This document shows positions 603-19,095 of a DNA stretch of 19,151 bases, piece by piece. This DNA is from an uncultured Erysipelotrichaceae bacterium. Its GTDB lineage: Bacteria; Bacillota_I; Bacilli_A; Erysipelotrichales; Erysipelotrichaceae. Within the stretch, counting starts at the first letter, position 1. The number at the start of each line of letters is the position of its first letter. The notes beneath the pieces were generated by a model. That model was not told where the DNA came from. It worked only from the letters and a program-made list of their open reading frames with translations, and searched no databases. The translations under genes were made by a program, and so were the position numbers. The stretch is taken from positions 1 to 19,151 of the forward strand of contig ONOV01000023.1 in NCBI GenBank assembly GCA_900319505.1, in the 5' to 3' direction.

Positions 603-2515
603 AAAAGTTACTCAACCATTCTCTTCTGATGGCTGTACTGCTGCTTCTGTTTCAGATGGGGAAAGGAAAGGCCCTCCTCTTCAGTGCAGTTCTTGTCATT
701 GCATTCTATATACTCAGAACCAGAGACAGAACCGTATTCTTTTTCATCATCTTATTAAGCCTTTCTCTTATTCCTCATACCCGGACAGACTATCCGAAAG
801 TACAGCAGGCACGGGTTGTTTCTGTTTCCGCCTCTTCCTTTATTGCCGAAGGCAATGGCTGCCGCTTTATCGTACGCTATGATGAACCGCCTGCGCCGGA
901 CAGTGAAATAGCCCTGAGTGGCAGATTTGAAAAGAATGAAAGTTCTGCCCATTTTTTCGGTATGGATTTTTCCGACTGGAATGAAAGACGGGGTATTTAT
1001 TATGCGATTCGTCCCGCCTCGCTTACCGTTATAAAGGAACATCATACATTCCGTTCCATTCTCTATCATCGGATCATCCGAATGAATGATCCTTCTTTGA
1101 AGAGTCTCTGCTTCAAAATGCTGTTAGGCATCAATGATCCGGATGAAGAGAGTTTCTTCTATCGCTGCGGCTTTTCTCTGAGCGGAATCATTATGCTGGT
1201 AAGAGAAGTGCTTGGCCGCTTCTGCAATGAAAGAAAGCGGAACCGTATTGTGTTTATTCTGACTTGTGTTCTGTTTATCGCATATGGTTTTCCCTTACTG
1301 CTGTTTCAGAGTCTTGTTTCAGCTGTTTTGAAAAAGATGGATCAGAGACAGGATGTCAGAGTCGGCATCGGGATGATTATCGTTATGCTGGTGTATCCGG
1401 AAAGCGTATGTTCTGCTGCGTTTCTTCTGCCATCATGCTTCAGGCTGTGTGCCCTTGAAAAAACAGATCGAAAGCTCAAGGGTTTCTATCTGTCATGTCT
1501 ATTGCAGAGCTATCTGTTTCAGGGATTCAATCCGTTAGTCTCACTGCTGTTTTCGTATCTGCGCCCGCTGCTTGGGGCAGGATGGTTTCTGGCACTTGGC
1601 TGTGTGGTGACAGGACGGCATGATCCGCTGAAGCTATTAAGGATGATGAATGAAAGTATTACCTTGCTTGACAGGTTCTTTCTGCCAGGTTCCATCATGG
1701 GTCTCGGGACACTGTTCTATCTTGCCATTCTGATCAGTCTGCACAGCAGGAAACATCTGATTCACTATGCTGTGATTCTGCTGTTTGTGTTTCAGCTTGG
1801 CGGCTTCTTTCATCCCTTTGGGGAAATTACCTTCATCAACGTCGGTCAGGGAGACAGTATTTTCATCAGAATGCCCCTGTCTCATGAAGGAATGCTGATT
1901 GATACTGGGAAGCCGGGACAGTATCGAACTGTCACAGCATATCTCAAAGCCAAAGGAACATGGAAGCTTGATACCATGGCCATCACCCATGGTGATGATG
2001 ATCACAGCGGCAGTATGGACCGGCTGAATCAGGCATACCATGTGCGCCAGCTGATTCAGGTTCATCAGAAGAAAATCACCTATGGAATGTATGACTTCTA
2101 TGATCTCAATGAGATCACGGATGAAGATGAAAATCGCTCCTCTCTTGTTCTTTATACAAAGATCAACGGCATGAGAATGCTGTTCATGGGGGATGCAGAT
2201 GAAGTGGCAGAAAAGCAGATTGCAGAGAAATATGGCAATCTGCGCTGTGATGTACTGAAGCTCTCCCATCATGGTTCAAAGACCGGATCCTGTGACAGAT
2301 TCCTTGATACGGTCAGACCGGGTCTCGGTATCATTTCTTCCGGGCCGTATCGCATTTACCATCATCCATCTCCTGAAACCATCCAGCGTCTGCTCAAACG
2401 CCATATTCCTTATCTTGATACAAAGAAGCAAGGGGATATTACGATTCTGATGCTGCCGCATATGAATCTTTGTATCAGTGCAGCGGGAAGCCTTGGTATA
2501 ATTAACACGCAATGA
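599..2515 (+). CDS. comEC: ComEC/Rec2-type DNA uptake channel with C-terminal metallo-beta-lactamase domain
   Basis: ComEC forms the inner-membrane channel for single-stranded DNA in transformation. The first ~70 residues are hydrophobic, followed by an OB-like extracytoplasmic stretch and the multi-spanning Competence region (about 175-400). From about residue 408 a metallo-beta-lactamase domain is clear: INVGQGDS, THGDDDHSGS (H464, D466, D468, H469), GDAD (531-534) and SHHGS (556-560). These are the metal-site motifs expected for the proposed nuclease domain. At 638 residues it is shorter than many homologues (roughly 700-800), and the usual conserved ISGLH-type segment of the Competence domain is not recognisable (residues ~190-205). 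The start is TTG 599, overlapping the comEA stop by 4 bases, with GAAGGA just upstream. ATG 629 is an alternative. The stop overlaps holA (ATGA). Confidence 0.88.
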   Translation: MKKLLNHSLLMAVLLLLFQMGKGKALLFSAVLVIAFYILRTRDRTVFFFIILLSLSLIPHTRTDYPKVQQARVVSVSASSFIAEGNGCRFIVRYDEPPAPDSEIALSGRFEKNESSAHFFGMDFSDWNERRGIYYAIRPASLTVIKEHHTFRSILYHRIIRMNDPSLKSLCFKMLLGINDPDEESFFYRCGFSLSGIIMLVREVLGRFCNERKRNRIVFILTCVLFIAYGFPLLLFQSLVSAVLKKMDQRQDVRVGIGMIIVMLVYPESVCSAAFLLPSCFRLCALEKTDRKLKGFYLSCLLQSYLFQGFNPLVSLLFSYLRPLLGAGWFLALGCVVTGRHDPLKLLRMMNESITLLDRFFLPGSIMGLGTLFYLAILISLHSRKHLIHYAVILLFVFQLGGFFHPFGEITFINVGQGDSIFIRMPLSHEGMLIDTGKPGQYRTVTAYLKAKGTWKLDTMAITHGDDDHSGSMDRLNQAYHVRQLIQVHQKKITYGMYDFYDLNEITDEDENRSSLVLYTKINGMRMLFMGDADEVAEKQIAEKYGNLRCDVLKLSHHGSKTGSCDRFLDTVRPGLGIISSGPYRIYHHPSPETIQRLLKRHIPYLDTKKQGDITILMLPHMNLCISAAGSLGIINTQ

Positions 2516-3522
2516 GTGAATATGTAATTTATGGTACGAATCAGTACCGGGAAAAGGAAGCGCTGCAGAAGGTGCTGCAGGAAGAAAGAATTGCCAGGGA
2601 CAGAATCAGTGATATAGACTGTTCCGGCACTTCTTTCAATATTGATGTGCTGCTGAATGAATGCTCGATCCTGTCCCTGTTCGGGGAAGAAGAGAAAAAG
2701 GCAGTCATTGCCCGCAATCCCTGGTTTCTCAAAGCCAGTGACAAGGCTAAGAGCACAGGAAAAAAGGGTAAGGAAAAAGACAGTAAGCGGGAATATCTTC
2801 TCAAGGCTTTGACTGCCTATATGAAAAATCCCAATCCTTCTACGGTACTGATCTTTTATCTTGACGGCTATGAAATGGACACAAGACGCAAGGAAAGCAA
2901 AGCCCTGACGGATGCCCATATCAGAACCATCCCGTGTGAATCCATCAAATACTGGGAGTTTCCCAAACACATTACGGAACTGCTGAAGAAAAATAAAATC
3001 AGTATGGATCCGCAGGCCAGAGCAGAGTTTGATCTGCGTATCGGTACAGATGAATTCCAGCTCCATCATGCCATTGAAAAGATGAAGCTTTATGGTGAAA
3101 GCCGCTATGACCTGTATACCATTCAGCAATTGATTCCGGAGGATGCCAATCTGGATATATGGAAGCTTGGCAATGCGGTATGTGCCGGCAGTGTCAGAGA
3201 CATGATGAATGCCAAAAACAGCATGCTGGAAAAGGGGCAGACGATTCAGTCCATGATTCCCCTGCTTTCCTCCCAGCTGATGCGTGCATATAATGTGCTG
3301 TGCCTGTCGGATCAGGGGTATGATCAGAGTTCCATTGCCACCAGGCTGCGCATGAAGGAATCTGCTGTACGCATGAATCTGCAGCGGCTGTATAAACGTT
3401 CTTCAAAGGATATACTGCAGATTCTGATGAAGCTGGCGGATCTTGAACAGGGCATGAAGGCAGGTACGCTGGACCCGGCGCAGGAATTTGATCTGTTTCT
3501 GTTTGCCTGTGAGGTGAAATGA
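2512..3522 (+). CDS. holA: DNA polymerase III delta subunit (clamp-loader wrench)
   Basis: HolA is the delta subunit of the clamp loader and opens the beta sliding clamp during replication. The protein has 336 residues, normal for the family. It begins with the typical YGTNQYREKEAL segment of an AAA-like domain I without a P-loop, has the acidic/hydrophobic clamp-contact region around ECSILSLFGEEEKKAV, and ends with the helical collar domain (MIPLLSSQLMRAYNVL, then AQEFDLFLFACEV). ATG 2512 overlaps the comEC stop as ATGA, so translation is probably coupled. comEC-holA adjacency is a recurrent Bacillota arrangement, which supports the assignment. Confidence 0.92.
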   Translation: MSEYVIYGTNQYREKEALQKVLQEERIARDRISDIDCSGTSFNIDVLLNECSILSLFGEEEKKAVIARNPWFLKASDKAKSTGKKGKEKDSKREYLLKALTAYMKNPNPSTVLIFYLDGYEMDTRRKESKALTDAHIRTIPCESIKYWEFPKHITELLKKNKISMDPQARAEFDLRIGTDEFQLHHAIEKMKLYGESRYDLYTIQQLIPEDANLDIWKLGNAVCAGSVRDMMNAKNSMLEKGQTIQSMIPLLSSQLMRAYNVLCLSDQGYDQSSIATRLRMKESAVRMNLQRLYKRSSKDILQILMKLADLEQGMKAGTLDPAQEFDLFLFACEVK

Positions 3523-12062: not shown

Positions 12063-13013
12063 ATGAACATGCATCTGAAGTTTGATGGTCTTCTGGATGT
12101 CATCAGATCCTTTCAGACCATCACAATCTATCGTCATGAGCATCCTGACTGCGATGCCCTGGGCTCACAGAATGCCCTGGCTGTATGGCTGAAGACAAAT
12201 TTTCCGGAAAAGCAGATCTGTTTGATGGGAGCGGAAACAACAGATCAGGCTCCTTTCCCAGCCAGTGATACTGTATCGGATGAAACGGTTAAGGAGAGTC
12301 TTGCTATCGTGCTGGATACAGCCAACAAGGAAAGAGTGGATGATGCCCGTTTCATCACGGCACGCAAAGTGATCAAGATTGATCATCATCCTGATCGTGA
12401 GCCTTTCGGTGATCTTTCCTATGTCTATCCCAAAGCTGCCGCAACATGTGAAATCCTTACCGAGTTTTTCAAGGACAATACGGATACCTGCCGGCTGCCA
12501 AAGGAAGCTGTCATATATCTGTATGAAGGACTGCTGACAGATACACTGTGCTTCCGTACCAGCAACACCACCTGTCATACCTTATGCATGGCAGCGTATC
12601 TGGCCGACTATGACATTGATATTCCCGGCATCAACAGACAGCTTTTTGATCACTCCTATAAGGATTATCAGTTTGCCGGGTATATCCATAACAATGTACA
12701 CTGGAAAGAGGGAGAGCCTGCCTATATTGTTCTGCAGCAGGATGTTCTGCAGCAGTATGGCCTGAGTGCTCCGCAGGCCCGTAATTTCATTGATGAACTG
12801 GGGCACGTCAGAGAGTTTGCCATCTGGGCCATGTTCACCCAGCATGATAATGGCGAGCCGTTATATGACGGTTCCCTACGCAGTAAGACCATTGTGATCA
12901 ATGATCTGGCAGAAAAGTATCACGGCGGCGGCCATCCCAATGCAAGCGGTGTGAAAAATCTTGACGAGGATGCAATAAAAGCTTTATTAAGCGATTTATC
13001 AAAACGGATATAA
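12063..13013 (+). CDS. nrnA: Bifunctional oligoribonuclease and pAp phosphatase NrnA (DHH/DHHA1 family)
   Basis: NrnA degrades RNA oligomers of 2-5 nucleotides from the end and dephosphorylates pAp to AMP. Relatives also hydrolyse the linear dinucleotides left after c-di-AMP or c-di-GMP cleavage. The metal-binding motifs are complete: RHEHPDCDALGSQ (H25-D31), VLDTAN, KIDHHPDREPFGDL (D107, H108, H109) and the C-terminal DHHA1 glycine loop YHGGGHPNASG (287-291). It has 316 residues, normal for the family. It starts 5 bases after the ackA stop. I see no strong ribosome site, so expression may rely on readthrough by ackA ribosomes. ATG 12069 is an alternative start. No clear terminator follows. 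Confidence 0.93.
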   Translation: MNMHLKFDGLLDVIRSFQTITIYRHEHPDCDALGSQNALAVWLKTNFPEKQICLMGAETTDQAPFPASDTVSDETVKESLAIVLDTANKERVDDARFITARKVIKIDHHPDREPFGDLSYVYPKAAATCEILTEFFKDNTDTCRLPKEAVIYLYEGLLTDTLCFRTSNTTCHTLCMAAYLADYDIDIPGINRQLFDHSYKDYQFAGYIHNNVHWKEGEPAYIVLQQDVLQQYGLSAPQARNFIDELGHVREFAIWAMFTQHDNGEPLYDGSLRSKTIVINDLAEKYHGGGHPNASGVKNLDEDAIKALLSDLSKRI

Positions 13014-13027
13014 TGCACGATTTGTCA

Positions 13028-13056
13028 TTGAATCGGCTGACTTCATGTTGTATGAT
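13028..13056 (+). promoter_or_regulatory. Sigma-A promoter for the HU gene
   Basis: TTGAAT (13028-13033), a 17-base spacer and TATGAT (13051-13056) make a good housekeeping promoter. Predicted initiation is near 13063, only a few bases before the GGAGG ribosome site (13068-13072) of the HU start. Confidence 0.7.
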
Positions 13057-13083
13057 TAGTCAAGTCCGGAGGAATTCATAACC

Positions 13084-13380
13084 ATGGATGTGACCAAAGT
13101 AACCAATAAGAAGTCGCTTGCCGAAATGGTATCTGAGCGCTTCAGCATGACAAAGAAGGAAGCTGCTGAAATCATCGATGCGGTTTTCGATGAGATGAGT
13201 GATACATTAGCCGAAGATGGACACGTTGAAATCACAGGTTTCGGCAAGTTTGCCGTTAAGACAAGAGCCAGCAGAAAGGGTGTCAACCCGCAGACAGGAG
13301 AAGAAATTCAGATCGCTCCCAGTCGTATTCCCGGCTTCAAGGCAAGCAAGAATCTCAAAGAAAAAGTACGCAGCAAGTAA
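13084..13380 (+). CDS. hup: HU-family histone-like DNA-binding protein
   Basis: HU bends and compacts DNA as a homodimer. The protein has 98 residues with the standard layout: N-terminal helices (TNKKSLAEMVSERF), the core VEITGFGKFAVKTR, a beta arm with the expected Arg/Pro tip around RKGVNPQTGEEIQI, and the closing PGFKASKNLKEKV helix. The start is ATG 13084 with GGAGG 11 bases upstream. It is a single-gene unit with its own promoter and terminator, consistent with high expression of an abundant nucleoid protein. Confidence 0.97.
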   Translation: MDVTKVTNKKSLAEMVSERFSMTKKEAAEIIDAVFDEMSDTLAEDGHVEITGFGKFAVKTRASRKGVNPQTGEEIQIAPSRIPGFKASKNLKEKVRSK

Positions 13381-13386
13381 TCGCAG

Positions 13387-13420
13387 AAACGGTATACTGA
13401 ATCACAAGGGTACCGTTTTT
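13387..13420 (+). terminator. Intrinsic terminator after HU
   Basis: An 8-bp stem (AAACGGTA 13387-13394 with TACCGTTT 13411-13418), a 16-base loop and a T-tract at 13416-13420, beginning 7 bases after the HU stop. The ACGGTA/TACCGT core recurs in the terminator at 19094-19121. Confidence 0.8.
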
Positions 13421-13569
13421 CATATGTTTTCTCTTTACTCGTCCGCAGATGAAATATTCTGCTTTTCTTGTGACCAGAGCTCTTCTTTTCCTTTTTTATA
13501 AGGTGATATGAGGAAGCACAGGAATGTGTCAATGATACATGGCTCAGAACATGGAATACGATTCCTTCT
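13421..13569. other. Short non-coding stretch, nothing recognised
   Basis: Rich in T and C runs up to about 13500, then mixed. No ORF, tRNA, paired -35/-10 or strong hairpin was found. If the following pseudogene was once complete, its 5' part and its guide (omega) RNA have been lost or are unrecognisable here. Confidence 0.4.
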
Positions 13570-14266
13570 GAGCGGCCGATCCGCTTAGGCGCATATGTAC
13601 TCAGGATCGTACGCAACCTTACTCTGAATGTTTATGAGGCAGCACATGCCGGATATGCGGAAAATCCGTTAAAGACCATGTGATTCTGCATGTGCATCAT
13701 ATTGGGTTCTGGCAGAAATACAGATCCAGCCGGATCAGTAATCTGCCTGCGGTGTGCGAACATTGCCATACAGCAAAGAGTCATAAGCCAGGCGGAAAGC
13801 TCTAGGGACTTGAACCGAAAAATACAGATCTTGTCGGTGCAACATATAAGAGCTTCATCTTCCAAAGACACATGCCAATGATGCCTGCTGCATAGGCGTA
13901 TTTCATCCCAGGCACAGAGCTGAAGAACTGCACTATCAGAAGAAACGGCGGAATAACCGCATTCTGTCAAAGTTCCATGATGCGAAATATATAGATATTC
14001 GTGATGGAGCAGTAAAATCAGGCAGTCAGCTTTCATGCGGCAGAACCAGCCGCAGAGAGAGCAGAAGATCTGACAAGAACGAGAGAATCTTTCGCGGAAG
14101 GAAATGCTCGGCAGGAAGAAATAATACCAGGACAAAGCATTACACTTATCAGCCAGGAGACACAGTACTGTATCAATCCCGGTACGGTATTGTCAAAGGG
14201 ACACATTGCAATAGCTCAAGGGTAATACTCATGTCAGGAAAATCAGTTAAGGTGTCAAAATTATGA
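13570..14266 (+). pseudogene. iscB: Decayed IscB-family (RRXRR/HNH, OMEGA-type) RNA-guided nuclease, 3' half only
   Basis: No intact ORF exists, but reading across frames restores the second half of an IscB-like protein. A weak match at 13570-13641 (linker before the HNH) is followed by a frameshift. Frame 13638-13835 then encodes the HNH: CRICGKSVKD, LHVHHIGFW (13686-13712), SRISNLPAVCEHCHTAK and HKPGGKL, interrupted by an amber codon at 13803-13805 where the family has Tyr, then GLEPK. About 35-40 residues of the family are missing before GATYKS. A +1 shift near 13850-13862 leads into a stop-free run, 13856-14263, with THANDACCIG (RuvC-III Asp), FHPRHRAEELHYQKKRRNNR, KYIDIRDG, CGRTSRR, NERIFRG, YQPGDTVLY, KGTHCNSSRVIL and GKSVKVSKL, ending at TGA 14264. 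The N-terminal RuvC-I part is absent. Family identity comes from remembered motifs, not a search. Confidence 0.82.
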
Positions 14267-14325
14267 ACGAAGTAGAATGTACATGTGACATAATTTCCGG
14301 GGCTTTTCTGCTGCCGGAATAAATA

Positions 14326-14353
14326 TTGACAGGAGCGGCGGTGCTTTTATAAT
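14326..14353 (+). promoter_or_regulatory. Near-consensus sigma-A promoter for the EAL/GGDEF gene
   Basis: TTGACA (14326-14331), a 16-base spacer and TATAAT (14348-14353). Both hexamers are exact consensus, and the spacer is one base short of optimal. Initiation is expected near 14360, leaving a ~55-base leader. Confidence 0.85.
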
Positions 14354-14365
14354 TGAGATTGATTA

Positions 14366-14398
14366 AGAGCCGGCTGTATTCTTTGTTACTGCGGCTCT
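14366..14398 (+). promoter_or_regulatory. Leader hairpin just before the ribosome site
   Basis: AGAGCCG (14366-14372) pairs with CGGCTCT (14392-14398), a 7-bp stem with a 19-base loop, ending 3 bases before the G-rich ribosome site at 14401-14406. No T-tract follows, so it is not a terminator. It could affect mRNA stability or ribosome access. It does not match a c-di-GMP riboswitch that I know. Confidence 0.4.
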
Positions 14399-14414
14399 AT
14401 TGGGGGGACGGCTG

Positions 14415-14705
14415 ATGGAAGTGCTGCATTTCAACCGTAAAGAACTTCATCGGTGTTATGATCTGCTGAAAGCCGGCATTTGTCTTGTGAAGGCGGATGC
14501 GCAGGGAACAATATTATTTGCAAACAGGGGACTTGTTTCGATGTATGACTGTGCATCGGAAGAAGAGTTCCTTTCTTTTACGACTGGCCGGTTCAGCGGT
14601 ATGTATACAGGTGATACGATTCAGCTTTCAAATAAGACGGAGGTATTCCGTATTTCTTTTTTTTCTCAGCAAAGCGGCATATGCGTACAGCGGATGTACG
14701 GATAG
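14415..14705 (+). CDS. N-terminal fragment: PAS domain of the EAL/GGDEF protein
   Basis: A 96-residue piece that looks like a PAS sensor: LLKAGICLVKADAQGTILFAN, then a Tyr-Asp-Cys helix and the beta strand TEVFRISFF. Reading leaves the proper frame at the T8 run, adds ~14 unrelated residues and stops at TAG 14703-14705. ATG 14415 follows a G-rich ribosome site (14401-14406). TTG 14400 is an unlikely earlier start because it would overlap that site. On its own it has no enzymatic domain. Confidence 0.6.
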   Translation: MEVLHFNRKELHRCYDLLKAGICLVKADAQGTILFANRGLVSMYDCASEEEFLSFTTGRFSGMYTGDTIQLSNKTEVFRISFFSQQSGICVQRMYG

Positions 14706-15856
14706 AGCCTGTGCTGGCTGATGGCGAAGCCTGTTATGTACTGGAAGTGGAAAACCGCAGAATGCTGAGCAGTGAAGCGAAAGATATATTGACAGGTTTT
14801 CCGGGAACTGCTGTGTTTCTGAACCAGGCATTGGAAATAGCACAGAAGCGGATGTCTGAGGGAACATTTACCGCCATGTGTCCGGTTTGTTTCAACGTTG
14901 CGAATTTCCGAGGCTTCAATCAGGAAAATGGCATGAATGCAGGCAACCGGTGTATTGCTTATATCGGTACAGTACTGCGCCGGAACTTTCCGGAAGGAAT
15001 CTTTACGCGGACAGATGCGGAAAATTTCTGGGGCCTTGTGGCACGGAAGGATATTTCAGAGAGGCTGGACAGCGTGTGCGCGGCTGTGAATCTGTATCTT
15101 GGACGGCGCAGCTATGCCCTGAAGGCTGGCGTAGTTGTATTTGATCAGGTCGCGGATGAGGAAACGCTGCGGCATTCTTTTGATATGGCACAGATTGCCT
15201 GCAATAGTGTGAAGAATGATGGTGAGCATTCCTATGCAGTTTTTTCAAAACAGATGGAAGAGCAGCTGGAGATGCGGCGGTATATTCTGGACCACATTGA
15301 TCAGGCGCTGGAAGAGGGCTATATCAAGATCTATTATCAGCCGGTTGTCAGGACGCTTTCGGGCAAGGTATGTTCATGCGAGGCGCTGGCGCGCTGGGAG
15401 GATCCGCAGAGAGGCATGATTTCACCTGGCGTGTTTGTGCCGGTGCTGGAGAGTGCACGACGGATCGGAAGGCTGGATCAGTATATGATTGAGCACGTGG
15501 TGCAGTATCAGAATGCTTTGCTGGAAAGCGGAAGAAGAGCTGTGCCTGTTTCGCTGAATCTGTCACAGTTGGATTTTGATCTGATCCAGCCGCTGAAGTA
15601 TCTCAATGAGATGACTGAGAAGTATCATATGCCGCATTCTTATTTCCATGTGGAGATAACAGAGACTGTGCTGGCGGAGAATCAGGAACGAATGGCCCGC
15701 ATGATTGATCATTTTCACGCGGATGGCTATGAGGTGTGGCTGGATGACTTTGGCTCGGGGTATTCGAGCTTGAAGTCGCTGAGCCGTTACCCGTTTGATC
15801 TGATCAAGCTGGATATGGGTTTTTTCGTGACTTTGATGCGGAAAGCAGAGAGATAG
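14681..15856 (+). CDS. Middle fragment: degenerate GGDEF plus most of an EAL phosphodiesterase domain
   Basis: A 391-residue frame. Residues ~60-190 are GGDEF-like but inactive (TDAEN stands where GGDEF should be). EAL follows: CEALARWEDP (E234), VSLNLSQLD, VEITETVL, VWLDDFGSGYSS and LIKLDMGFF. After the T6 run (15820-15825) the frame is lost and stops at TAG 15854-15856, so the last EAL residues needed for catalysis (EGVE Glu and the final Gln) fall in the next frame. No ribosome site precedes ATG 14681, and the homologous sequence continues upstream in this frame, so this is a fragment, not an independent gene. Confidence 0.6.
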   Translation: MRTADVRIEPVLADGEACYVLEVENRRMLSSEAKDILTGFPGTAVFLNQALEIAQKRMSEGTFTAMCPVCFNVANFRGFNQENGMNAGNRCIAYIGTVLRRNFPEGIFTRTDAENFWGLVARKDISERLDSVCAAVNLYLGRRSYALKAGVVVFDQVADEETLRHSFDMAQIACNSVKNDGEHSYAVFSKQMEEQLEMRRYILDHIDQALEEGYIKIYYQPVVRTLSGKVCSCEALARWEDPQRGMISPGVFVPVLESARRIGRLDQYMIEHVVQYQNALLESGRRAVPVSLNLSQLDFDLIQPLKYLNEMTEKYHMPHSYFHVEITETVLAENQERMARMIDHFHADGYEVWLDDFGSGYSSLKSLSRYPFDLIKLDMGFFVTLMRKAER

Positions 15857-18800
15857 TGACCAGTGTTGTAATGATGGCAAAGCGGCTTGGCATGCATACG
15901 CTGGCGGAAGGGGTTGAGACCCGGGAACAGATAGATTTTCTCAAGAAAATCGGCTGTGAGAAAATTCAGGGCTATTTTTACGGTAAGCCGATGCCAGGAC
16001 ATATGATTCATGCACAGCTGAATCAGAAGGGTCTGCAGCTGGAGAGCGGTCTTGAAGCATCCGTATATGATAAGGCAGGTCTTGTGGATATGCTCTCAGA
16101 GGATAATGTATATCTGTTTCTGATGGAGAATGGAACGGTGCGGCTGCTGGCATATAATGAAGCACTGACAAAAGCAGTACGGTCTGTCGGAGCAGAACGG
16201 GCACTGGATACAACCCTGGTGATGTCGGCTGAGAAGATGCCGCGGTACCGGCATTTTGTGCGGTTTATGGAAAGTGTATTTGATCAGAGCCAGGCAACGG
16301 AGACATTTATTGAGAATGGTTCTGCTCTGCGTGTTCAGGCATCGTTTGTGGCGGGGGTGCGTGAGTTCTGGGTTGGCTCAGCACATGTGACAAATATCAG
16401 TTCGAATGAAATATCCCTGCTGGAGCAGCGTCAGAATGCTGTGATGCATAATGCAGTACTGCTGTTTGACGGAATTTATCATCTGGATCTGGAAAAGGAT
16501 CAGATAGAGGTAGCGGCATGTGTGCATGCACAGATGAAACTCGGAACGGTTTTCCAGGGAATCCGGCCGTCTCTTGTGAGGTTTTGCCGTAAATTTGTGA
16601 ATACCCTGGATCAGGAACGTTTCCTTGCATTTACCGATACGGATCATCTGCTGGAAGCATCGAAGCACGCGGAATACGGTTACGTCCAGGATCTGTTTCG
16701 AATCAAAAGAGATGATGGCAGTTTCTACTGGACACTGTTTGTCGCACTCCCGGTAAAAGAGAATGAACATGACAGTATTCTCATATATGAAAGAAGATCT
16801 GTGTTTGAAAAGAATCAGAACCGGAAAGCCTTGCTGAAGGAGTGTATCTCATCTCTTGAACCTCAGCTGTCCGGTCCGCAGGAATCAGACATGCTTCAGC
16901 GCTGGCAGGCAAGTGTGCTGCGTGCTTTTGTACATTGCAGCGAACTGCCGATGTTCTGTATGGATCAGGATGGTGTATTTACAGCTGTCAATGAAAAGAT
17001 GCTTGGTTATTTAGGCCGCCAGACAAGTGATGAGGTCATCGGGCTGACGCCGGAGGAACTTGGTAATTTTGTCGATGCAGAAGAGCTGCGGCAGGCAGAA
17101 AGACGGGTTCTGGATCGGGGTGAGACCATGTATTATACGCCGATGCTGGCGGTTTCAGGAATTGCACAGCGGATACCGATGACGATGTTTCCCTGGTATG
17201 ACGGCAATCAGATTGCCGGGATTGCGGGATATGTCCATATCTGGGAAGAAGAGGAGGAAGCGTCATTTACGAAGGATGATCTGAAAGGTCTTCTGAATAT
17301 ATATGGAACGCTGCTTGCAGGAAGCTCGTATGATGGGGTATATCGCGCTAATGGTGCAGAGTATGTAGCAGTATATCTTTCTCTGCACGATGCAGCGCGG
17401 ATCAGCCGCGTGTATGGCAAGAATTTCCTGAATCGGTTGATATGTACGTGTGCGGATATGCTTCGGGCGGCACATCTGCCGGATGGGACAACGATGGGGC
17501 ATCTGATGGGATGCCGGTTTGTTATAATTGGACATCAGGCGGATGGTGAAGCGCTTCTGACCGCGGCGCAGCAGGTACAGAACGGCATACAGGGGCTGGA
17601 TGAAATTGATGGAGTTGCCTGTCATTTCCGTATGGATGTCAGTGCGGCATATGGTTCGGAGGCTTCCGGATTTGCGGCTTTGCTGGGAAAGCTGGAGGAA
17701 AGGGCTGATGGCGGTGAGATGGAGATTGCATCCATGCGTAAACTGCATAATCTGCGGCAGGGGCTGGTGCTTTCGGAAGAGCTGTTAGATACATCGCCGC
17801 AGCGGATTATGTTAGTGGATACAGAGAATCATGATCTGCTGCTGATCAATAAGGCCCTGAAACGGGATCTGCATCTGCCGGAGGATTTCATATGTGCAGG
17901 ACGGAAGTGCTATGTCGTTCTGCAGGGGCGGGAAACACCATGTCCGTTCTGCCCTAACAGCACCCTGCCGCTGGATCGGTTTATTACCCGGGCAGAAAAG
18001 TTCATGACTACTGGAGAAGCATATGATACTAGAGAAGTGCTGATTTCCTGGTGGGGACGGAAAGCAAGGCTGATGCTTGGCATGCCGGCAAAGGATTCTG
18101 CCGGTGCCAGGAAGCTGAATGATCTTTTAAATGATGAGATCTGGGCAAATGAATCTATTACAGCCGGTATGGCAGAAAAGGATCCTGATATCGGCATTGC
18201 CAAGACCATCAATCTGATTGGCCGGAATCTGGAGTCAGAGCGGCTGCTGATCTTTGAAGAACGGGATGATGGAACGGTACGCTGTACGTATGAATGGTGT
18301 ACACAGAACCATGTCTGCGTAAAGCAGGAGCTGCAGAGTGTGCTGCAGAAGAAGCTTGAACCGCTCTATCGGCTGTATAAGGATAATAAGATCATAACAA
18401 TTCCGGACTATCCGGATTATTGCAGAAAACATCCTGACATGTGGCTGCCGCTTGAAGAAATCCGGAATGTGATCTCAGGACATCTTTCCATATCGGGACG
18501 TTCACTTGGGTTTTCGCTGGTTCTGAATGTGAATGAAGAGGCTGTATACCGGGCTGGCTATGTGCTGTATATGCTGACAGACTTTGTGGCAGTGATGATA
18601 CAGAACCGTGACAATATGGACGCGGCGGTAGCACGCAGTGAGCAGGATCCGCTGACAAAGATCGGCAATCGGGCCGGTCTGAATGCATATGTGGCAGATC
18701 GTAAATCCACCGGCCTGGTGACATTGATTATGGGGGATGTCAATGGCCTGAAAAAGACGAATGATACAGAAGGTCATCTGGCAGGTGATGCATTGATCTG

Positions 18801-19095
18801 CCGGATTGCGGACATTCTGGTGCAGTGTACAGATCGTGAACATGTATTCCGGATGGGCGGGGATGAGTTCCTTGTGATCCAGGAAAATATGGACGAAACG
18901 GGTGCACACCAGCTGATTCATGAGATCAAAGACATGTGCCACAGCCAGGGCATGAGTATTTCGCTTGGCTATGCGGTGCATCAGGGACCGCTGGATGATA
19001 TTGATGCAGTGCTGAAGATCGCAGATCAGTCGATGTATGAAGATAAAGGCCGGCATTATCATCGCCGCAGGAGTGATTATCATCGAGCAGATTAA
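15856..19095 (+). CDS. C-terminal fragment: end of EAL, sensor modules and an active GGDEF diguanylate cyclase
   Basis: A 1079-residue frame. Residues 1-45 finish the EAL domain (TLAEGVETREQ, IQGYFYGKPMP). Next come a sensor-like region (60-320), a PAS (about 355-470), a degenerate GGDEF (470-640, MGCRF at the active-site position), a PAS-like module with C685, C696 and C699 (PCPFCPN), a GAF-like domain (760-905) and a GGDEF domain from DPLTKIGNRAGL to the end. The active site GGDEF is at 1001-1005. The inhibitory RxxD motif that would lie 5 residues upstream is absent. The apparent start GTG 15856 shares its G with the TAG stop of the previous frame (TAGTG), so reinitiation is possible, but no ribosome site is evident and homology continues upstream. 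Confidence 0.7.
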   Translation: MTSVVMMAKRLGMHTLAEGVETREQIDFLKKIGCEKIQGYFYGKPMPGHMIHAQLNQKGLQLESGLEASVYDKAGLVDMLSEDNVYLFLMENGTVRLLAYNEALTKAVRSVGAERALDTTLVMSAEKMPRYRHFVRFMESVFDQSQATETFIENGSALRVQASFVAGVREFWVGSAHVTNISSNEISLLEQRQNAVMHNAVLLFDGIYHLDLEKDQIEVAACVHAQMKLGTVFQGIRPSLVRFCRKFVNTLDQERFLAFTDTDHLLEASKHAEYGYVQDLFRIKRDDGSFYWTLFVALPVKENEHDSILIYERRSVFEKNQNRKALLKECISSLEPQLSGPQESDMLQRWQASVLRAFVHCSELPMFCMDQDGVFTAVNEKMLGYLGRQTSDEVIGLTPEELGNFVDAEELRQAERRVLDRGETMYYTPMLAVSGIAQRIPMTMFPWYDGNQIAGIAGYVHIWEEEEEASFTKDDLKGLLNIYGTLLAGSSYDGVYRANGAEYVAVYLSLHDAARISRVYGKNFLNRLICTCADMLRAAHLPDGTTMGHLMGCRFVIIGHQADGEALLTAAQQVQNGIQGLDEIDGVACHFRMDVSAAYGSEASGFAALLGKLEERADGGEMEIASMRKLHNLRQGLVLSEELLDTSPQRIMLVDTENHDLLLINKALKRDLHLPEDFICAGRKCYVVLQGRETPCPFCPNSTLPLDRFITRAEKFMTTGEAYDTREVLISWWGRKARLMLGMPAKDSAGARKLNDLLNDEIWANESITAGMAEKDPDIGIAKTINLIGRNLESERLLIFEERDDGTVRCTYEWCTQNHVCVKQELQSVLQKKLEPLYRLYKDNKIITIPDYPDYCRKHPDMWLPLEEIRNVISGHLSISGRSLGFSLVLNVNEEAVYRAGYVLYMLTDFVAVMIQNRDNMDAAVARSEQDPLTKIGNRAGLNAYVADRKSTGLVTLIMGDVNGLKKTNDTEGHLAGDALICRIADILVQCTDREHVFRMGGDEFLVIQENMDETGAHQLIHEIKDMCHSQGMSISLGYAVHQGPLDDIDAVLKIADQSMYEDKGRHYHRRRSDYHRAD

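Follow-up and report, generated by a model that had tools for sequence, protein, structure and literature searches.

Remnant of an IscB (HEARO-type) nuclease gene joined to a sigma-factor fragment in an uncultured Erysipelotrichaceae genome

The window analysed here, a stretch of 19,151 nucleotides from an uncultured Erysipelotrichaceae bacterium (genome G000), contains a gap between a gene for an HU-type DNA-binding protein and an EAL/GGDEF gene (Table 1). The list of open reading frames holds no ORF of at least 80 aa with a usual start on the plus strand from 13502 to 14399, and two ORFs of the minus strand (102 and 167 aa) overlap the gap. Translation of the plus strand nonetheless recovers three stretches with homology, to a sigma factor, to an HNH domain and to a RuvC-III motif with its C-terminal region. 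The left-hand genes, encoding DHH and HU proteins, are open. The right neighbour is distributed over ORFs 14400-14705, 14681-15856 and 15856-19095, with the first ATG of the first ORF at 14415; its Pfam EAL match is divided between two of the ORFs (profile positions 4-179 and 193-236), and we infer that ORF 14400-14705 is part of the same gene. A single pair of direct repeats (18 nt) is present in the gap, and the region 13350-14450 contains four promoter-like sites, against a shuffle mean of 2.0. Just to the right of the remnant, a sigma-70 type promoter-like site at 14326-14353 agrees with the consensus at 12 of 12 bases (TTGACA, 16 nt, TATAAT).

Table 1. Genes, remnants and breaks in and around the gap, in window coordinates.
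Feature	Position	Strand	Remarks
HU-type DNA-binding protein gene	13084..13380	+	left neighbour, intact; 98-aa ORF; Pfam Bac_DNA_binding 4e-31
Sigma factor remnant, part of region 2 only	13507..13650	+	frame +1; Pfam Sigma70_r2 5.9e-6, profile 21-64 of 71
Junction of sigma and IscB remnants	13643..13650	+	eight bases common to both homologies
IscB remnant: HNH domain and the linker after it	13643..13853	+	frame +3; TAG in frame at 13803
About 100 nt missing relative to intact IscB, frame altered too	13852..13853	+	L162 DNA alignment
IscB remnant: RuvC-III motif with the C-terminal region after it	13850..14263	+	frame +2; open for 138 codons up to the TGA at 14264
EAL/GGDEF gene, right neighbour, broken into three frames	14415..19095	+	ORF list; Pfam EAL

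A sequence-only reading of this DNA had proposed that the gap hides the fossil of an IscB-type nuclease, and this core claim is strongly supported by the comparisons reported here: matches to the HNH and guided_IscB models, 60 homologues of the tail, and an intact relative accompanied by a HEARO RNA. IscB proteins are RNA-guided nucleases that cut DNA and belong to the group from which Cas9 arose. As that reading had recognized, the HNH piece carries the signature CRIC, HHI, NL and CEHC in frame +3 at 13644-13802, and the tail displays the RuvC-III motif THANDA in frame +2. The HNH piece matches the Pfam HNH model above its cut-off (3e-10), and its best NCBIfam match is guided_IscB (4.4e-11, profile positions 193-241 of 314), with a score of 42.5 bits that falls below the whole-protein cut-off of 175 bits for a query of which only 55 residues were submitted. 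The tail yields no match in Pfam, NCBIfam or PDB; the guided_IscB model stops at residue 315 of 453 in the closest intact relative, and hence almost the whole tail lies outside it. At the level of single proteins, however, 60 of 64 candidates match the tail at E<=0.001, all 60 of them at E<1e-16, the best at 1.3e-59 with 77% identity. In tblastn searches of 13381-14420, a relative with an intact HNH domain (L153) gives 108 and 89.7 bits, and chance similarity is ruled out by the top score of 24.3 bits among 1000 dinucleotide-preserving shuffles of the same region. The C-terminal frame of L153 itself leaves the family pattern after the SCG motif, and this relative also looks broken.

The closest intact relative, L162 (IMGVR_UViG_2831422761_000001), was obtained through a scan of IMG/VR with an alignment of 17 sequences (A1), which gave 2 confirmed loci from 49 pattern matches; an earlier contig scan with the single tail as query had returned 33 pattern matches and no relative. 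Its ORF spans 461 codons, or 453 residues from the first Met, and the protein scores 270.9 bits against guided_IscB (cut-off 175), with a HEARO RNA upstream of the gene at 1738-1972 (109.4 bits). Directly upstream of that RNA lies a 209-codon ORF (1066-1695), which we take to be serine-recombinase-like. The L162 protein is identical to the HNH piece at 52 of 72 residues (72%) and to the tail at 97 of 137 (71%). The DNA alignment pairs 13643-13853 with L162 2688-2898 (73%) and 13852-14257 with L162 2997-3402 (69%), and both remnant pieces are thus collinear with L162, in the same order and on the same strand, at the protein and DNA levels. Homology begins at 13643 and ends at 14257-14263, some 16 codons before the end of the L162 protein. 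In a FastTree phylogeny of the tail, the fossil groups with the homologue P0001 (support 0.94) and then with L162 (0.84).

These matches also bear on the notion that the stretch derives from some other HNH protein, such as a homing endonuclease or a group II intron protein, for which the HNH piece taken alone does offer weak PDB matches, with a maturase reverse transcriptase as the strongest of them (E 0.069). With guided_IscB as the best NCBIfam match, HNH piece and tail collinear with one and the same IscB, and PDB matches at E 0.069 or weaker, that notion is refuted and we allow it a negligible chance. By descent, then, the remnant is that of an IscB, with an HNH domain of IscB type followed on the same strand by RuvC-III and the C-terminal region. 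In total it covers 13643-14263, about 0.62 kb in two frames. The HH of the HNH domain is preserved, as are the H and D of RuvC-III, and the C-terminal region is largely present.

The left limit of the remnant is set by a second fossil. The product of 13507-13650 in frame +1 matches Sigma70_r2 with 26.4 bits (curated cut-off 24), and NCBIfam sigma models match it only below their cut-offs. Sigma ORFs from 19 same-genus loci (L015-L033) all align with this frame (19/19), 12 of them reaching the last residue at 13650, and identity with the ORFs of L015-L018 amounts to 56-61%. We label the remnant ECF-like, from the size of about 190 codons of many relatives. Matches to the sigma piece occur in 25 of 60 same-genus genomes, counting the fragment of G000 itself, which has no further one. 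The rest of the sigma gene is absent from the gap, where the other matches of the same-genus ORFs are noise (E 0.018 or weaker). Similarity to the IscB proteins of L004, L005, L153 and L162 starts at 13643-13644 of the window. Since sigma homology extends to 13650 and IscB homology starts at 13643, positions 13570-13642, which had been counted as part of the fossil, are not IscB, and the frameshift suspected near 13637 gives way to the junction with the sigma remnant: frame +1 at that point is the sigma fragment. The eight-base overlap may reflect joining at a short shared sequence.

According to PMC9640706, an IscB protein combines PLMP, a RuvC domain (three motifs plus a bridge helix) and HNH with a wedge domain and a TAM-interacting domain, and has an omega RNA as partner. 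Measured against this plan, the N-terminal half (PLMP, RuvC-I, bridge helix and RuvC-II) is missing, L162, L153, L004 and L005 giving only noise-level similarity before 13643-13644. A HEARO (omega) RNA is detected neither in the window (gathering score) nor, at E<=1, in 12356-15763 (L001), nor in G000 at E<=0.001. The right end shows nothing recognisable like those of the relatives compared, and there is no left end either. A shared right-end motif was considered and dropped: the compared relatives end near ATGAA or a variant, and the likeness at the stop of the fossil is too short. Within the remnant, the amber codon noted earlier at 13803 is indeed an in-frame TAG that interrupts the HNH frame. 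The 35-40 residues that the sequence-only reading took to be lost and the shift it placed near 13855 go back to one event: at 13852/13853 about 100 nt, or about 33 residues, are missing, which alters the frame as well. The tail was likewise correctly described as open without a start: its 138 codons (13850-14263) include just two start codons, at 14231 and 14252, and no ATG, GTG or TTG precedes 14231 in this frame. Because RNA, N-terminal half and any usual start before 14231 are gone and a stop codon interrupts the HNH frame, the remnant would be unable to function as an IscB nuclease.

If the IscB gene of this strain were otherwise whole, the breaks would be errors of sequencing or assembly, and such errors are conceivable in a genome of 239 contigs whose EAL/GGDEF gene is also in three frames. 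Base errors, however, cannot give half a missing gene, an absent HEARO RNA, a loss of about 100 nt and an adjoining sigma fragment, and the DHH and HU genes on the left are open; we therefore regard this explanation as very improbable. Taken together, the stretch is a genuine pseudogene of IscB, of an ordinary kind, adjoining the remains of a sigma-factor gene.

The extent of decay can be gauged from the pattern of substitution. Relative to L162, differences at codon positions 1, 2 and 3 number 32, 22 and 79 over 137 codons of the tail, and 11, 12 and 33 over 70 codons of the HNH piece, a third-position excess as for a gene that would have been coding until lately. Of the near-invariant columns, the fossil departs from 2 of 30 in the tail, where 179 others have a median of 1, and from 2 of 17 in the HNH domain (124 others, median 0), and its terminal branch in the tail tree measures 0.154 against a median of 0.243. 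Such little-damaged conserved positions and short branch imply either that decay set in recently or that constraint on the tail persists, and to us the decay looks recent.

Constraint would be expected if the open RuvC-III/C-terminal frame had been kept as a functional, nuclease-less, nucleic-acid-binding fragment derived from IscB, much as TnpB-like proteins have been exapted as repressors. The 138 open codons and the few changes at conserved positions suit such an exaptation, as does a 170-aa homologue (P0002, longest contig 40,268 bases) that is also without the stretch before the same motif. Nevertheless, the tail frame has no usual start before 14231, the genome is without HEARO, and recent decay accounts for the open frame equally well, so that we give exaptation no more than a very slight chance.

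The comparison with other genomes of the genus throws little light on how the remnant came to lie here. Taken whole, the gap is matched by none of the 69 other same-genus genomes, 13 of which have partial matches, of 44 to 169 bases and confined to sigma or IscB parts. Of 29 same-genus DHH loci, 20 have HU after DHH, and none of the 29 (flanks at most 1.5 kb) contains a match to sigma, HNH, tail, EAL or GGDEF; the nearest DHH protein is only 61% identical. The earlier claim that the fossil marks past OMEGA activity at this site beside HU is hence not sustained, as the gap retains neither an omega RNA nor a left end nor a recognisable right end, and IscB is found in 0 of the 29 DHH loci within flanks of at most 1.5 kb.

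Our preferred reading, to which we assign a probability of about 0.94, is that an IscB element (HEARO-type, OMEGA) has left a truncated, dead copy in the gap. Intact relatives are made up of an omega RNA and, after it, a nuclease about 450 residues long, and the original copy would have had this layout. The RNA of IscB systems guides the protein, the HNH and RuvC domains cleave one DNA strand and the other between them, and recognition of the target-adjacent motif falls to the C-terminal domain. The element may once have moved into the neighbourhood. On its left the copy adjoins the sigma-gene fragment, a junction that would have arisen most simply via deletion between two genes on the same strand. 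The omega RNA, left end, N-terminal half and right end have been lost, and the remaining HNH and RuvC-III/C-terminal parts carry the stop codon and the out-of-frame loss of about 100 nt; the stretch presumably has no present function. A different mode of arrival, which we hold to be possible though somewhat short of an even chance, is that a rearrangement brought in the piece from another place along with the sigma fragment, its truncation having happened beforehand, and that it was never an inserted element at this place. The missing element end, omega RNA and target site, the direct abutment of sigma fragment and IscB piece, and the absence of such sigma genes beside DHH-HU in the 29 loci are in keeping with rearrangement; on the other hand, no source locus is seen, and G000 has no other match to a sigma gene of this type or to an IscB, the fossil itself being its sole IscB-tail match. 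Rearrangement agrees with the preferred reading, that of a dead IscB copy, on sequence identity and differs only in how the piece arrived.

Truncated copies of this kind have ample company. IscB-tail matches are present in 6 of 60 same-genus genomes, G000 included, and HEARO matches in 16 of 70, 14 of them above the cut-off and G000 not among them; the HEARO search controls matched in 0 of 14 named genomes. One same-genus genome of 2.1 Mb (G047) has eight HEARO matches, six above the cut-off. A PF14239 search of G000 was unproductive, and its controls matched no genome either. Among named relatives, 78 pattern matches gave 40 confirmed IscB loci, in records from Erysipelotrichaceae, Lachnospiraceae, Butyrivibrio, Clostridia, Desulfovibrio and others. 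A HEARO RNA at gathering score accompanies 12 of the 13 of these loci that were scanned (the miss being L121), 6 of 8 loci in a second set (misses L012 and L061, with a sub-cut-off match at the L012/L061 locus) and 2 of 2 in a third. At E<=1 it was found at 2 of 6 loci, three misses (L002, L005, L007) lying at contig ends that lack the upstream side and the fourth being the window. There is room for a full gene at 33 of the 40 loci, with stop-to-stop frames of at least 430 codons in 22 and shorter ones in 11, three of these measuring 413-428 codons; broken IscB copies are thus ordinary and frequent among relatives. In P0002, the HNH stretch joins LAKTHANDACC directly, and its internal loss ends at the same motif as that of the fossil. 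Matches in plasmid records (7) and phage records (1) all show less than 60% identity.

Complete copies reveal the layout of the element. In a one-contig genome (G065), five copies are 94-98.5% identical, and the whole element takes up about 1.8 kb, with HEARO first, then IscB, then about 70 bp past the stop, leaving no room for a transposase gene. PMC9755519 treats HEARO ORFs and IscB as one family and places few of them near an IS200/IS605 TnpA. Larger spacings between HEARO and IscB are also seen. One of the G065 copies (L106) has about 1.7 kb with a 422-codon ORF (866-2134, minus strand) in between, which to us looks like an IS110-type transposase. In Butyrivibrio sp. INlla21 (L130), the HEARO RNA (1414-1643) is some 1.6 kb from an IscB frame starting at 3257, and a RAGATH-18 RNA lies between them at 3151-3217.

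The remnant tells nothing new about the mechanism of IscB. It illustrates that a short gap can conceal an IscB remnant, which then comes to light through its reading frames, and it contributes one more decayed member to a subfamily carried by related gut bacteria, in which multiple copies and broken copies are both common. Judging by titles and the first lines of abstracts, we found no published work on IscB remnants, which is no proof of absence. Compared with Sigma-70 factors, represented by ORFs of about 190 codons in same-genus genomes (e.g. L016 and L018), the sigma remnant is reduced to 48 codons without start or later regions and fused to IscB DNA, whereas part of region 2 is shared. 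Likewise, in relation to the IscB/HEARO family (NF040563 guided_IscB; RF02033 HEARO), the remnant is without omega RNA, N-terminal half and right end and carries a stop codon and an out-of-frame loss, and yet it has in common with L162 the HNH and RuvC-III/C-terminal stretches.
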